From: Planctomycetaceae bacterium
GTDB taxonomy: Bacteria > Planctomycetota > Planctomycetia > Pirellulales > PALSA-1355
Length of the DNA: 64,000 nt
Assembly: GCA_003153375.1 (NCBI GenBank)
Contig: PLYM01000267.1
Coordinates: forward strand, 1 to 64,000
Direction of reading: 5' to 3'
Part shown: positions 15,546 to 46,650 of the stretch, piece after piece
How the letters are laid out: every line of letters begins with the position of its first letter
Position numbering within the stretch: position 1 is the first letter of the stretch
Made by a program: the position numbers and the translations under genes
Notes under the pieces: generated by a model
Database searches by the model: none
Told to the model about the DNA's origin: nothing
What the model saw: the letters and a program-made list of their open reading frames with translations, nothing else

Positions 15546-16758
15546 GCGGGTGGCCCCGACAACTTGTTGAGTCTGTCCGGGAATTGGGTTGCTCTAAGCC
15601 AGGGAATCTCCGTGGGTTATTGTTTCGGCTGCGAACTGAACAACAAACCCAACGGAGATTCCAAGGATGGGATCGCGCGCTTGCCAGCGCGCGTCGTTGG
15701 TCGAATTGGCTAAGCCGCTGTTGCAGCGAGCCGAGCGTGAGTGCCCACGAACGGGTCCCGGTCGCCGGCCCACCATCCCGGATTGGGTGTTGGGTGTGCT
15801 AATTATGGTCGCCGTGCTGAAACGGCGGAAGAGCAAGTCGGCGCAGTATGCTTTTTTGCAGCAGCACCAGGGCGAATTGCTCGATCGGCTAGGCATCGAC
15901 AAATTGCCTGCTCGCAGCACCTATTTCGATCGATACCGACGCGCGCATCACCTGTTTCGAACTGCCGTACGATTGCAAGGTCGCCAGGCCCTTCGGGACG
16001 GGTTGGCGGATGCGACGTGCGTGGCCGTCGATAAGAGCCTGGTTTCGGCGCGTGGCCCCGTTTGGCATCAACGGCAACGCCGACGCGGCATCGCGTCTCC
16101 GGGAGTCGACCGCGACAGCTCCTGGAGTTACTCCGAGCACCATGGCTGGGTGTACGGCTATGGCTTCGAAGTGGTCGTAACGGCCGCAAAAGACGGCATC
16201 GTCTTCCCCTTGCTCGTCGGTGTGGAAACCGCGGGCATCCGCGAGATGAGGACCTTCCTCGAGAAGATTCCCCACCTGCCCGCAAAAACCAAGTACGTCT
16301 TGGCAGACAGCGGCTATGACAGCAACGACATCGGCGAAGCGATCGAGTGGACGAGCGACGGCCGGACAACCGGCTGTCGTTTCTTGTGTCGCCAGGTCAA
16401 GACGCGCCGCGCTGCACGAAAACAGTGGCGAGAAACGCATCATCGCCGAAAACGCCGGGAGCGACGCGAGGCCCGCGCGAAACACTTTCAATCAGCCAAG
16501 GCCAAACGGCTCTATCGACGGCGTGGCAAATGCGTGGAACCGTTCCATCAGTGGTTCAAACACCTGTTCGATCTCCACGAGTCCGTCTGGCACCGTGGAC
16601 TCGATAACAACCGCACGCAAATCGCCGCCGCCACGTTCTGCTACCAACTGCTGCTACGCTATAACCGCCGACGCCGTCTTCAAAACGCACAACTCCAATG
16701 GGCCCTCGACGGCCTCTGAATTCCCGGACAGACTCAACTTGTTGTCGGTGCCACCCGC
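15546..16758 (+). mobile_element. Insertion sequence, DDE type, about 1.2 kb, with about 40-bp inverted ends
   Basis: The left end (15546-15585) and the reverse complement of the right end (16719-16758) match over 40 positions with three mismatches; the core reads CCGACAAC..GTTGAGTCTGTCCGGG. One intact transposase ORF fills the interior, and its stop overlaps the right repeat. The element cuts into the tail of an older RAYT transposase remnant on its left. No clear target duplication is seen (left flank GCGCG, right flank ATGCT), so the exact ends may be a few bases inside. Intact ends and an intact ORF suggest a recent, possibly active copy. Confidence 0.8.
15667..16719 (+). CDS. IS transposase, DDE (IS4/IS5-like)
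   Basis: 350 aa. The DDE triad can be placed at D122 (ATCVAVDKSL), D214 (VLADSGYDSN) and E291 (KCVEPFHQWFKHLF). The spacing, with a beta-rich insertion around YGYGFEVVVTAAKDG, fits the RNase H-like transposases of the IS4/IS5 superfamily. The N-terminal part (ELAKPLLQRAERECPRTGPGRRP...) is the presumed DNA-binding region, and an Arg/Lys-rich stretch (about 245-285) lies between the second D and the E. The ATG follows GGAGATTCCAAGG. It has no frameshift, so the element may be transposition-competent. I cannot name the IS family with certainty. Confidence 0.88.
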   Translation: MGSRACQRASLVELAKPLLQRAERECPRTGPGRRPTIPDWVLGVLIMVAVLKRRKSKSAQYAFLQQHQGELLDRLGIDKLPARSTYFDRYRRAHHLFRTAVRLQGRQALRDGLADATCVAVDKSLVSARGPVWHQRQRRRGIASPGVDRDSSWSYSEHHGWVYGYGFEVVVTAAKDGIVFPLLVGVETAGIREMRTFLEKIPHLPAKTKYVLADSGYDSNDIGEAIEWTSDGRTTGCRFLCRQVKTRRAARKQWRETHHRRKRRERREARAKHFQSAKAKRLYRRRGKCVEPFHQWFKHLFDLHESVWHRGLDNNRTQIAAATFCYQLLLRYNRRRRLQNAQLQWALDGL

Positions 16759-40800: not shown

Positions 40801-41961
40801 CTAGCGCGAACCCAGCGCGCGGGTGAGGGCCGCGTCGAGGTCGGCCCGCAGATCGTCGAACGCTTCGAGACCGACCGAGAGGCGGATCAGGCCGTCGGTG
40901 ATGCCGTAGGCCAGCCGATCCTCGCCGCTGTAGCTAGCATGCGACATCGAAGCCGGCTGTTCGATCAGCGATTCGACGGCGCCCAGGCTGACGGCCAGTT
41001 GGAACAGCCGCGTCGACTCGGCCACCAACTTGGCCGCGGCGAAATCGCCGGCGATCTCGAAGCTGAGCATGGCGCCGAACGCGCCGTCCATCTGCCGCCT
41101 GGCCAGCTCGTGGCCGGGGTGCGTGGCCAGGCCGGGATAGTAGACCCGCACCACGCGCGGATCGGACTCGAGCCACTCGGCAATCTGCCGGGCGGTGCGC
41201 GATTGTTCACGCACGCGCAGCTCGAGGGTTTTCAGGCCGCGCGAGCAGAGGTAGGACTCGAGCGGGGCCATCACGCCTCCCGTGGCGTTTTGCAGGAAGT
41301 ACAACTCGCCAAACAACGTCGGATCTTTCACCACCAACGCGCCGCCCAGCACGTCGCTGTGGCCGCCAATGTATTTGGTGGCCGAGTGCATCACGATGTC
41401 GGCGCCCAGCTCGAGCGGGCGCGTCAGGGCCGGCGTGGCGAACGTGTTGTCGACGGCCAGCAGCGCCCCGTGCCGCCGTGCGATCTCGGCGCAGCCGGCC
41501 AGGTCGGTGATTGACATCAGCGGATTGCCGGGCGATTCGATCCACACCATCTTGGTCTCCGGGCGCATCGCAGCCGCCAGGGCCTTCAGGTCGCTGGCCG
41601 TGGGCACCAGCGAAACCTCGACGCCTGCTCGAGTGGTCACGCGGTGCAGCAAGCGATAGGTGCCGCCGTAAATATCGGTGCCGGCCACGACGTGCTGGCC
41701 GCTGGAGAGCAGCATGATGGCGCAATGCGTGGCGGCCATGCCCGAGCTGAAGGCCAGGGCTCCGGTTCCGCCTTCGAGCGAAGCCAGGGTCGACTCGAAC
41801 GCCTTGCGCGTGGGATTGCCGCTGCGCGAGTAGTCGAACTCGGCGCCTTCGCCGGCGCCGGGCTGAACAAACGTGGTGGCCAGGTGCAGGGGACGGACGA
41901 CGGCTCCGGTCTGGGGATCGGGCTCGTTGCCGACGTGGATGGCACGCGTGCGAAATTGCAA
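40801..41961 (-). CDS. Trans-sulfuration enzyme (cystathionine synthase/lyase family, PLP)
   Basis: 386 aa from the chosen start. Type-I fold Cys/Met-metabolism enzyme: TRAIHVGNEPDPQTGAVV start, YSRSGNPTRKAFE, SSGMAATHCAI, the PLP-phosphate region GTDIYGGTYRL, VDNTFATPALTRP, and the Schiff-base lysine in MHSATKYIGGHSDVLGG. It fits cystathionine gamma-synthase, beta/gamma-lyase or a related sulfhydrylase. The start is unusual: no ATG lies near the expected position. I take a TTG at 41961; a TTG at 41967 and a GTG at 42045 are also open, the last inside the MITE-like repeat. It follows a second enzyme of the same family, probably in one transcript. Confidence 0.88.
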   Translation of the reverse strand: MQFRTRAIHVGNEPDPQTGAVVRPLHLATTFVQPGAGEGAEFDYSRSGNPTRKAFESTLASLEGGTGALAFSSGMAATHCAIMLLSSGQHVVAGTDIYGGTYRLLHRVTTRAGVEVSLVPTASDLKALAAAMRPETKMVWIESPGNPLMSITDLAGCAEIARRHGALLAVDNTFATPALTRPLELGADIVMHSATKYIGGHSDVLGGALVVKDPTLFGELYFLQNATGGVMAPLESYLCSRGLKTLELRVREQSRTARQIAEWLESDPRVVRVYYPGLATHPGHELARRQMDGAFGAMLSFEIAGDFAAAKLVAESTRLFQLAVSLGAVESLIEQPASMSHASYSGEDRLAYGITDGLIRLSVGLEAFDDLRADLDAALTRALGSR

Positions 41962-42014
41962 AGCCAAGCGCCTTGTGTTGGGTGCGCTGCGGGCGCACCG
42001 CCAGGGGGTTAGGG

Positions 42015-42107
42015 ACGACTCAAAAATAACTTCGCCCGCAAACACCTCTCCCTCTGGGAGAGGGCAGGGTGAGGGAAATCATCATGCCGAAGTTATTTTT
42101 GAGTCGT
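42015..42107. repeat. MITE-like element with 20-bp perfect inverted ends
   Basis: The outer arms ACGACTCAAAAATAACTTCG (42015-42034) and its exact complement (42088-42107) enclose 53 bp that contain CTCTCCCTCTGGGAGAGG, a boilerplate often seen in intergenic repeats. Imperfect pairing continues a few bases further out on each side. The element sits between two PLP genes, 4 bases from the stop of the upstream one, and it supplies the possible 5' extension of the downstream one. Confidence 0.7.
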
Positions 42108-42110
42108 TCC

Positions 42111-43319
42111 TTAGTGCCGCAATGCCTGTTCGAGATCGGCCACGAGGTCTTCGTGATTTTCGATGCCGCAGGCCAGGCGGATCATGTTGTCGGGAATGCC
42201 GTAGCGCTTTCGCTCCTCGGGCGTACACTCATAATAGCTCATCACCAGCGGCTGCTCGATCAGCGACTCGACGCCGCCCAGGCTGGGAGCGATGCGGGCG
42301 ATGCGGGTGGCGTCGACCACCGCGGCGGTCTGCCGCCAGTCGGCGTTCTTGACCAGAAACGTCACCAGCCCGCCGAAGCCGCGCATGGTGCGCTTCGCGA
42401 CGTCGTAATAAGGATGCGTTTCGAGGCCCGGATAAAAGACCCGTTCGATGCGCGGGTGGGCCGCCAGAAAGCGGGCCACGGCCAGCCCGTTCTCGTTGTG
42501 CCGCTGCATCCGCAGCTCGAAGGTCTTGAGGCCGCGGGCCAGCAGAAAGATGTTGTGGGGCGAGCTGACACTGCCCATGATGCCGCGCAGCTTGCGCACC
42601 GGGGCGGTTTTTTCCTCGGAGCCGACGATCACGCCGGCCAGCAGGTCGTTGTGGCCCGCCAGGTACTTGGTGGCCGAGTGCAGCACGTAGTCGATGCCCG
42701 CGGCGATGGGCCGCAGGTTGTAGGGCGTGCCCAGCGTGGCGTCGATCAGCGTTTCGACGTTGTGTTTGGCGCCCAGGGCGGCGAAGCGATCGAGATCGAC
42801 CACGCTGAGGTGCGGATTCGTCGGCGACTCACTCACCAGCAACTTGGTGCGCGGCGTGATCGCGGCTTCCATGGCGGCGTAATCGCAAGCGGCCACTTCG
42901 CGCGTCACGACGCCGAACCGCGCCAGGTGCTTGGTGCAAAACTCGCGGCTGCGATGATAACACTCGTTGAAGAACACGACCTCGTCGCCGGCGCTCAGCC
43001 TGGTCATCAGCAGGCCGACGATGGCGGCCATGCCGCTGGAGAAGAGCACGGCCGACTCGCCCCCTTCCAGCTCGGCCAGCTTGCGTTCGACGACGCGCTC
43101 GCTGGGGTTGCCATAGCGGCCGTATTCCTCGCGCGGCAGCTTCTGCTCGATGAACTCGATGACCGACGCCGTGTCGGGAAAGGTGTAGGTCGAGGCGCAG
43201 AACATCGGATCGGTGATTGCGTTGGCAAATTTTTGCCGATCCTCGCCGGCGTGTACCGCCAGGGTCGAGAACCCGCGCTGCCGCGCCGCGTCGTGCGCTG
43301 ACTTGTCGTTGTCGCTCAT
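42111..43319 (-). CDS. Second trans-sulfuration enzyme (cystathionine gamma-synthase-like, PLP)
   Basis: 402 aa. Same fold as its neighbour but clearly a different paralogue: FSTLAVHAGEDRQKFANAIT, EEYGRYGNPSERVVERKLA, LFSSGMAAIVGLLM, FFNECYHRSREFC, ATLGTPYNLRP, and the PLP lysine in LHSATKYLAGHNDLLAGV. Conserved Tyr/Arg residues of the substrate site are present (EYGRYGNP). Start at ATG 43319 with GAGGT 7 nt upstream. It is the first gene of the pair, so it could make cystathionine that the second enzyme cleaves, or they may use different acceptors; sequence does not decide. Confidence 0.88.
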   Translation of the reverse strand: MSDNDKSAHDAARQRGFSTLAVHAGEDRQKFANAITDPMFCASTYTFPDTASVIEFIEQKLPREEYGRYGNPSERVVERKLAELEGGESAVLFSSGMAAIVGLLMTRLSAGDEVVFFNECYHRSREFCTKHLARFGVVTREVAACDYAAMEAAITPRTKLLVSESPTNPHLSVVDLDRFAALGAKHNVETLIDATLGTPYNLRPIAAGIDYVLHSATKYLAGHNDLLAGVIVGSEEKTAPVRKLRGIMGSVSSPHNIFLLARGLKTFELRMQRHNENGLAVARFLAAHPRIERVFYPGLETHPYYDVAKRTMRGFGGLVTFLVKNADWRQTAAVVDATRIARIAPSLGGVESLIEQPLVMSYYECTPEERKRYGIPDNMIRLACGIENHEDLVADLEQALRH

Positions 43320-44209: not shown

Positions 44210-44328
44210 TGTAGGGCAAGAGGAGCCCAAGCCGAGACTCTTTTCCCTTACTGTCCGTCCACAAACCGCGACGTAGACTATATTAAAATCCCGCGGGGGT
44301 GGCATTCTTTCAGTCGGAGCAGGGCAGC

Positions 44329-46650
44329 ATGGATTCCGCGAGGGTTCTCTCGCCGACGACGGTCTCGCGCGATTTGACGGCGGGGCTCGTGGTCTTTCTG
44401 GTGGCGCTGCCGTTGTGCCTGGGCGTGGCGCTGGCCTCGGGCGCGCCGTTGATCTCGGGGGTTGTGGCGGGCGTGCTCGGCGGCGTGGTCGTCGGGCTGT
44501 TGAGCGGTTCGCAGGTGAGCGTCAGCGGGCCGGCGGCGGGCATCACGGCGGTCGTGACCGCGCAGGTCGCGCAGCTCGGCTCGTTCGAGGCCTTTCTGCT
44601 GGCCCTGATCGTCGGCGGGGTGATTCAGGTCCTGCTGGGCGTCGCCCGGGTGGGGTTCATCGCGGCGTTCATTCCCTCGAGCGTGATCAAGGGATTGCTG
44701 GCCGCGATCGGCGTGATCCTGATTCTCAAGCAGCTTCCGCATCTGGTCGGACACGACACCGACCCGGAAGGCGAAATGCAGTTCTTGCAGCCGGACGATC
44801 ACAATACGTTTTCGGAACTCGGGCTGTTGGGCGATATGCACCTGGGCGCCGCAGCGATCGGCCTGGCGTCGATCGTGGTGCTGGTGCTGTGGGACCGCTC
44901 GCAGCGGCTCAAAGGCTCGGTCGTGCCCGCGCCGCTGGCCGTGGTGCTGCTGGGCGTGGTGCTGAGTCTGTTGTTCAAGCAGGTGGGGGGCTTGTGGGAG
45001 ATTCCGGCCAGCCACCTGGTGCAGATGCCGGTGGCCGAATCGCTGGGTGGTTTTTTCAGCTTTCTGACGCGGCCCGATTTTTCGCACTGGTCGAATCCGG
45101 CCATTTACCTGGGCGGCCTGACGATCGCCATGGTCGCGTCGCTCGACACGTTGTTGAATCTCGAAGCCACGGACAAGCTCGACCGCCGGCAGCGCGTCTC
45201 GCCTCCCAGTCGTGAGTTGATTGCCCAGGGCGTGGCCAATATCGCGGCGGGCCTGATCGGCGGCATTCCGGTCACGGCCGGCGTCATTCGCGGGTCGGTC
45301 AACATCAACGCCGGCGCCGAAACCCGGCTGGCCACGATCGTTCACGGGCTGTTGCTGCTGGTCTGCGTGGTGCTGCTGCCGACCTATTTGAACCTGATTC
45401 CCTTGTCGTGCCTGGCCGCGATTCTGCTGGTGACCGGCATCAAGCTGGTCAGCCCCTCGCTGATTCGCCAGATGTGGCTCGACGGCCGCTATCAATTCAT
45501 TCCGTTTGCCGCCACGCTGGTGGCCATTGTGTTCACCGATCTGGTGACTGGCATCCTGATTGGCTTGGGCGTGAGCCTGGCGTTCATCCTGAACAGCAAT
45601 CTCCGCCGGCCGGTGCGGCGCATCGTCGAAAAACACCTGGGCGGCGAGGTGCTGCACATTGAACTGGCCAACCAGGTCAGCTTTTTGAATCGGGCCTCGC
45701 TCGAAAAAGCCTTGCGCAGCGCGCCGCGCGGCACGCACGTGCTGCTCGATGCCCATGGAACCGACTACATCGATCCCGACATCCTGGCGTTGATTCGCGA
45801 ATTCAAGGACCGTACGGCGCCGGTGCGCGGGGTACAAGTGAGCCTGCGCGGCTTTCGCACCAAGTATCAGTTGCAAGATCAGATTCAATATGTCGATTAC
45901 TCGACGCGCGAGTTGCAGGACCAGGTGACGCCCACCCAGGTGCTGCACATCCTGCGCGAGGGCAATCAACGCTTCCGCCAAGGGCGACGGCTCACTCGCG
46001 ATCTGGGTCGGCAGCTCGACGCCAGTGCCCGCGGGCAGCATCCGTTGGCCGTGGTGCTCAGTTGCATCGATTCGCGCACGCCGGGCGAGTTGATTTTCGA
46101 CCTGGGCCTGGGCGATATCTTCAGCGTCCGCGTGGCGGGCAACATCATCAGCCCCAAGATGCTGGGCAGCCTGGAGTATGGCTGCGCCGTGGCCGGGGCC
46201 AAGTTGATCCTGGTGATGGGGCACACGCGCTGCGGGGCCGTGTCGGCCTCGGTCAAGTTGGCCAGCTCGCACCAGAACGTCGCCGAGGCAACCGGCTGTC
46301 AGCACCTGGCGCCGATCGTCGACGATATCCAGCGCTCGATCGACGCCGCCTCGCTGGCGCGCTTTGAGCAGGCCGGCGAGCTGGAACAGGCTGCGGTGAT
46401 CGATGCCGTGGCCCGCCGCAACGTGCTGCGGTCGGTGCGGGCGATCGTCGAACGCAGCGACACGATTTCCGGCCTGGTTCGGCAGGGAAAGGTGGCGGTC
46501 GTGGGCGCGGTGTATGACGTCACGACCGGCGAGATCGAGTTCATGACCGGCGAGGCCTTTGGTCTGACGGACGTCGGAGCGATCGCCCCAGCGGCCGGAA
46601 CGACCCACGAACAGCGGCCGGCGGGTGAAGCGAACCCCCGATCGAGCTAG
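44329..46650 (+). CDS. SulP-family anion transporter fused to STAS and beta-carbonic anhydrase
   Basis: 773 aa, three parts. (1) SulP membrane domain (about 15-430, 11-14 helices) with LTAGLVVFLVALPLCLGVAL, GPAAGITAVVTAQVAQLG and ETRLATIVHG. (2) STAS-like cytoplasmic domain (about 445-540) including LLDAHGTDYIDPDILALIREF. (3) Beta-carbonic anhydrase (about 550-755) with zinc ligands C579, H632, C635 and the D581-R583 dyad (SCIDSRTPGE, GHTRCGAVSA). Such fusions probably couple bicarbonate transport to CO2/HCO3- interconversion. The ATG at 44329 (GGAG, 9 nt) was preferred over a GTG ten codons earlier. All key anhydrase residues are intact. Confidence 0.93.
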   Translation: MDSARVLSPTTVSRDLTAGLVVFLVALPLCLGVALASGAPLISGVVAGVLGGVVVGLLSGSQVSVSGPAAGITAVVTAQVAQLGSFEAFLLALIVGGVIQVLLGVARVGFIAAFIPSSVIKGLLAAIGVILILKQLPHLVGHDTDPEGEMQFLQPDDHNTFSELGLLGDMHLGAAAIGLASIVVLVLWDRSQRLKGSVVPAPLAVVLLGVVLSLLFKQVGGLWEIPASHLVQMPVAESLGGFFSFLTRPDFSHWSNPAIYLGGLTIAMVASLDTLLNLEATDKLDRRQRVSPPSRELIAQGVANIAAGLIGGIPVTAGVIRGSVNINAGAETRLATIVHGLLLLVCVVLLPTYLNLIPLSCLAAILLVTGIKLVSPSLIRQMWLDGRYQFIPFAATLVAIVFTDLVTGILIGLGVSLAFILNSNLRRPVRRIVEKHLGGEVLHIELANQVSFLNRASLEKALRSAPRGTHVLLDAHGTDYIDPDILALIREFKDRTAPVRGVQVSLRGFRTKYQLQDQIQYVDYSTRELQDQVTPTQVLHILREGNQRFRQGRRLTRDLGRQLDASARGQHPLAVVLSCIDSRTPGELIFDLGLGDIFSVRVAGNIISPKMLGSLEYGCAVAGAKLILVMGHTRCGAVSASVKLASSHQNVAEATGCQHLAPIVDDIQRSIDAASLARFEQAGELEQAAVIDAVARRNVLRSVRAIVERSDTISGLVRQGKVAVVGAVYDVTTGEIEFMTGEAFGLTDVGAIAPAAGTTHEQRPAGEANPRSS

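Follow-up and report, generated by a model that had tools for sequence, protein, structure and literature searches.

The question raised by this locus is whether the short inverted-repeat unit lying between two adjacent genes for PLP-dependent enzymes is a mobile element, and whether its arrival deprived the downstream gene of its start, as had been proposed in an earlier, sequence-only reading of the window (the whole 64,000-nt stretch of Planctomycetaceae DNA analysed here). The available evidence indicates that the unit is very probably a 99-bp non-autonomous, IS-derived MITE which sits on the upstream gene's TAA stop codon and carries an intrastrand triplex motif (TM) between IS-type ends, the TTG start of the downstream gene being, in the same explanation, a base change of an ancestral ATG.

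The inverted-repeat arms at 42011-42034 and 42088-42111 are 24 nt long and 96% complementary, and include the perfect 20-bp stretch that the sequence-only reading had recognised around a core. The element proper, which has no strand, spans 42012-42110 (GGGACGACTC...GAGTCGTTCC) and thus reaches slightly beyond the limits of 42015-42107 given previously. It is short, non-coding and bounded by 23-bp terminal inverted repeats, the left one (42012-42034, plus strand) reading GGGACGACTCAAAAATAACTTCG and the right one (42088-42110) reading GGAACGACTCAAAAATAACTTCG on the minus strand, with one mismatch between them. On either side stands the triplet TTA (42009-42011 and 42111-42113, no strand), representing the two copies of a target-site duplication. 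The core at 42045-42075 (plus strand) has the form CCTCTCCC-TCT-GGGAGAGG-GCA-GGGTGAGGG, that is, a pyrimidine stem, a complementary purine stem and a mirror-repeat third strand GGGTGAGGG joined by short loops, which is the architecture of a TM of the TM/PIT/BoxC type and is similar to published TMs, as far as those in Table 1 of PMC4666352 are concerned. Its segment CCTCTCCCTCTGGGAGAGGGC at 42045-42065 had no match with up to three mismatches when the window was shuffled 100 times with its dinucleotides preserved. The unit at 42012-42110 is far beyond chance and recurs in full 19 times in a second genome of the genus.

A search for further copies, which had been suggested along with the original proposal, returned no additional full copy in the window's own genome (a 6.7-Mb draft in 291 contigs), where ends and core occur together once and a single end is found elsewhere with three mismatches. 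The 19 full copies, together with two that are cut by contig ends, belong to the Planctomycetia MAG JACQFF01 (G001), so that the family is multicopy and dispersed. The hits in G001 coincide, coordinates included, with those in G442, the genome that bears the name JACQFF01. When the genome collection was scanned for the exact 19-nt end, 22 stretches were retrieved, 20 of them from JACQFF01, one from a Bacteroidetes MAG and one from a Deltaproteobacteria MAG; the same end matched nothing in viral contigs, the element had no plasmid match at E 1e-5, and its end sequence was found in no paper of the literature searched. In two genomes of the same family (G002 and G003), a 14-nt end pattern allowing at most one mismatch was not matched. 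A 17-nt end with at most one mismatch was present in 13 of 392 genomes of the phylum, a sample that includes the window's genome and leaves out JACQFF01, and the exact matches were confined to the window's genome.

The spacing of the ends was identical in all 20 end pairs found within 600 bp of each other, that of the window included, indicating that the element is 99 bp long every time. Identity to the consensus ranged from 93.9 to 100% among the copies, with the window copy at 93.9%. Identical 3-bp flanks (TTA, TAA or, once, CAA) were observed in 16 of the 20 copies, 15 of which are among the 19 in JACQFF01, compared with 7.75 on average and at most 14 in 2000 re-pairings of the flanks. The four copies with unequal flanks read TAA/TTA, TAG/TAA, TTA/TTG and TAT/TAA, and many of the target sites may, by eye, be read as CTWAG. 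The earlier description of the unit as MITE-like is therefore borne out by its terminal inverted repeats, its target duplications and its membership of a dispersed family of constant length.

The element separates two genes that run head to tail on the minus strand, both of which encode PLP-dependent enzymes of Cys/Met metabolism (PF01053): the upstream gene at 42111-43319, with an ATG start and a TAA stop, and the downstream gene at 40801-41961. They had been named as two trans-sulfuration genes. Their assignment to the PF01053 enzymes stands, and the best NCBIfam models for both proteins are indeed of trans-sulfuration and related enzymes (cystathionine gamma-synthase for the downstream protein), although all 25 models shown per protein stay below their cut-offs. 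Read on the minus strand, the TTA to the right of the element is TAA and serves as the stop codon of the upstream gene; this stop has therefore been both duplicated and kept, and the encoded protein is intact. Between stop and start codon there are now 149 nt, a distance that by arithmetic would have been 47 nt before the element and one TTA were added. JACQFF01 possesses the same gene pair with a gap of 4 nt and without the element, its intergenic region being too divergent to give the exact pre-insertion sequence.

For comparison, 56 relatives were searched, 45 matched at the chosen threshold and the loci of 29 were fetched and examined. In these loci, 116 kb altogether, neither the ends (up to three mismatches) nor the core (up to two) occurred in any of the 29 relatives. 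Within a limited flank, 18 of the 29 carry, upstream and on the same strand, a relative of the upstream gene. Four of the 20 copies coincide exactly with a TAA that ends an open frame of at least 100 codons. A preference of the element for stop codons was considered and is not claimed, because 132 of the 1078 TAA sites (12%) in the examined loci also close such a frame. An insertion of this type, which targets TTA/TAA, can stay silent when it falls on a stop codon, because the duplication restores the codon.

Two features of the downstream gene had led to the suggestion that the insertion took away its original start or leader, with the element now supplying the N terminus: the open frame runs into the element, and there is no ATG near the expected N terminus. 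Both observations were confirmed, and the gene does have TTG (41961-41959) where its relatives have ATG. The conclusion drawn from them was not upheld, and the replacement of the start by the element is highly improbable. The codon aligned with this TTG is ATG in 27 of the 29 relatives, against which no N-terminal residues are missing; in the other two, ATG occurs in frame a few codons further upstream. The finding named beforehand as refuting the proposal, relatives that likewise start at TTG, was not made among the 29, TTG at this position being confined to the window. Because the relatives have ATG at this very codon, the start has been altered in place rather than removed. Furthermore, the TTG lies 50 bp from the element, which itself lies behind the stop of the upstream gene, and between target duplication and start there remains a non-element leader of 47 nt. 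This leader contains AAGG (41971-41974, minus strand), a Shine-Dalgarno-like motif whose letters were checked, 9 nt before the TTG and putatively serving as ribosome-binding site, as well as a hairpin with a 7-bp stem (41981-41999, minus strand) that was read from the sequence and is absent from the minimum-energy fold of the region. The starts of the relatives show nothing that visibly corresponds to the residues encoded by the element. The downstream gene thus has a full N terminus; its TTG is a one-base change of an ancestral ATG or, conceivably, an assembly error, and the continuation of the frame into the element is accidental. In annotation, the gene should not be extended into the element.

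Two further explanations concern the nature of the unit itself. It could be a cis-acting regulatory RNA hairpin of the operon (an attenuator, an mRNA stabiliser or a terminator) that is not mobile at all, and the very stable fold predicted for it (-52.1 kcal/mol, z -7.27), placed between two co-oriented PLP-enzyme genes, speaks for this. Such a role instead of mobility is extremely unlikely given that ends and core are missing from all 29 relatives' loci and that the same 99-bp unit occupies 19 other places in JACQFF01, with identical 3-bp flanks in 15 cases; in addition, no Rfam family reaches its gathering threshold anywhere in the window, and no terminator-like site was found at the element. 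For the transcript, a strong hairpin between the two cistrons is predicted; as no promoter-like site was found at the element either, it would have little promoter or terminator role, and may possibly alter the coupling of the genes or the stability of the mRNA. It is very unlikely that the unit is a TM- or REP-type repeat spread by a REP-like (RAYT/TnpA-REP) mechanism, to which the terminal inverted repeats would be incidental. In favour of such a mechanism, JACQFF01 holds about 80 further TMs outside the family, many of them in inverted pairs as in the E. coli examples described in the accessible text of PMC4666352. The core is, moreover, the part of the element that is shared across the phylum. 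Against it stand the invariable spacing of the ends, seen in all 20 pairs, and the 3-bp duplications found in 16 of the 20 copies. Neither feature would be expected from single-strand REP transposition, and REP and BIME sequences, which resemble the present repeats in being palindromic and, in JACQFF01, in the inverted pairing of TMs, are not known to have terminal inverted repeats at fixed ends or a target duplication.

The explanation that accommodates these observations is thus the insertion of an IS-derived MITE, for which the following course may be envisaged. A DDE-type transposase acting in trans would have recognised the ends of the MITE and inserted it at the TAA stop of the upstream PLP-enzyme gene, duplicating a 3-bp triplet of the TTA/TAA type; the duplicated TAA would have preserved the stop, leaving both proteins unchanged, and the spacer would have grown from the calculated 47 nt to its present length. 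The element is modular: IS-type ends enclose a TM, a motif that is elsewhere dispersed without such ends. While this mechanism of insertion is an ordinary one for a MITE, the cargo is unusual. Duplications of 3 bp of the form TNA are typical of the IS5-like/PIF-Harbinger-like group. The present element shares with bacterial MITEs of that group a length below 200 bp, the lack of coding capacity, long terminal inverted repeats and a short AT-rich target duplication; as no partner transposase was found, any family assignment would be based on the target duplication alone.

Regarding the cargo, the accessible text of PMC4666352 (Holder et al. 2015) lists in its Table 1 E. coli TM sequences very like the 42045-42075 core, with the same order of CCTCTCCC, loop, GGGAGAGG, loop and GGGTGAGGG. 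In that text, triplex formation is reported in vitro for the E. coli sequence and was without support from in vivo footprinting, and earlier work is cited according to which the TM has no promoter or terminator activity. It is also stated there that no association of E. coli TMs with transposons, phages or plasmids was found, nor any transposase or integrase remnants around them, whereas the TM of the window forms the centre of an element with terminal inverted repeats and target duplications. Literature searches on intrastrand triplexes and MITEs returned PMC4666352 alone, and it was also the only paper relevant by title when GGGAGAGGG was combined with MITE and inverted repeat.

A strict TM pattern was matched once in the window's genome, by the MITE core, and 102 times in JACQFF01; the reversed pattern, used as a control, was matched in none of the 14 genomes searched, 13 of which had been chosen for matching beforehand. 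Across the phylum, matches were listed in 40 of 392 genomes (the window's own included), with at most two candidates scored per genome, and the core accounts for the majority of them. Throughout the JACQFF01 genome, many TMs are arranged in inverted pairs, separated in most cases by 15-25 bp. When the loci of its 102 TMs were fetched, with five near contig ends left out, those outside the MITE family were seen from their flanks to be single or in inverted pairs and to have no shared ends. Among 163 TM places with 70-bp flanks, which were the loci at hand rather than a random sample, 18 belonged to the 99-bp family and 145 did not. The latter had no clear flanking inverted repeats, their longest perfect inverted match being 11 bp once, 10 bp twice and at most 9 bp otherwise; re-paired flanks gave at most 9 bp except for one match of 16 and one of 23 bp, in a test that would miss imperfect repeats. 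The TM is thus not, as a rule, the core of a MITE; the 99-bp family has captured one.

It is an unlikely, broader proposition that elements with terminal inverted repeats are a general vehicle bringing TMs into genomes that have none, the TM perhaps being kept because its hairpin or triplex aids transposition or replication-coupled spread, and TMs without such repeats being decayed or secondarily multiplied descendants. The sole strict-pattern TM of the window's genome did come inside such an element. A TM-cored MITE whose target duplications are still visible provides one concrete and testable route of TM movement.

The search for a partner covered the transposase families PF01609, PF13340 and PF13359 as well as end patterns, and in the incomplete assemblies searched no IS or transposase with GGRACGACTCAAAAATAACTTCG ends was found. 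No pair of MITE ends was present at 28 transposase loci of 1.9-3.7 kb, some of them cut by contig ends (25 PF01609 places in G001 and G000, and three PF13340 places in G000); the nearest matches were single and weak, with four mismatches to the 19-mer at L132 and one mismatch to a 12-mer at L144. Neither PF13340 nor PF13359 had any match in JACQFF01 or in the Deltaproteobacteria MAG JAABSF01 (G443). Within the window itself, a DDE_Tnp_1 (PF01609) match at 16012-16647, in an open frame of 359 aa, lies in a locus (L140) without ends resembling those of the 99-bp MITE.

Related ends do exist in JAABSF01, where elements with GGGCTGACTCAAAAATAACTTC ends and, in several cases, flanks of the TTA/TAA type were found. 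Their ends are nearly the same as those of the window MITE, whereas their core is different and the copies seen have no TM; the ends common to both are likely to be the sites at which a transposase would act. An apparent 1.26-kb element of the same MAG was rejected, as it consists of two element ends around a sigma-70-type gene. At this place (L102, 250-1519), opposite MITE-type ends with the signature GACTCAAAAATAA flank the gene (PF04542, PF04545, PF00140), as if a host gene had come between the halves of an element or had been captured by them. In JACQFF01, two single-ended matches, C216 and C262, do not resemble element ends. At about position 2048 of locus L120 (C271), a solo end GGGACGACTCAAAAATAAC stands beside an unrelated interior, no transposase being seen alongside, and is probably the relic of a related element. 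Further along in the window, at 44299-46650, a sulfate permease-type transporter (PF00916) and a carbonic anhydrase (PF00484) are joined in one open frame.
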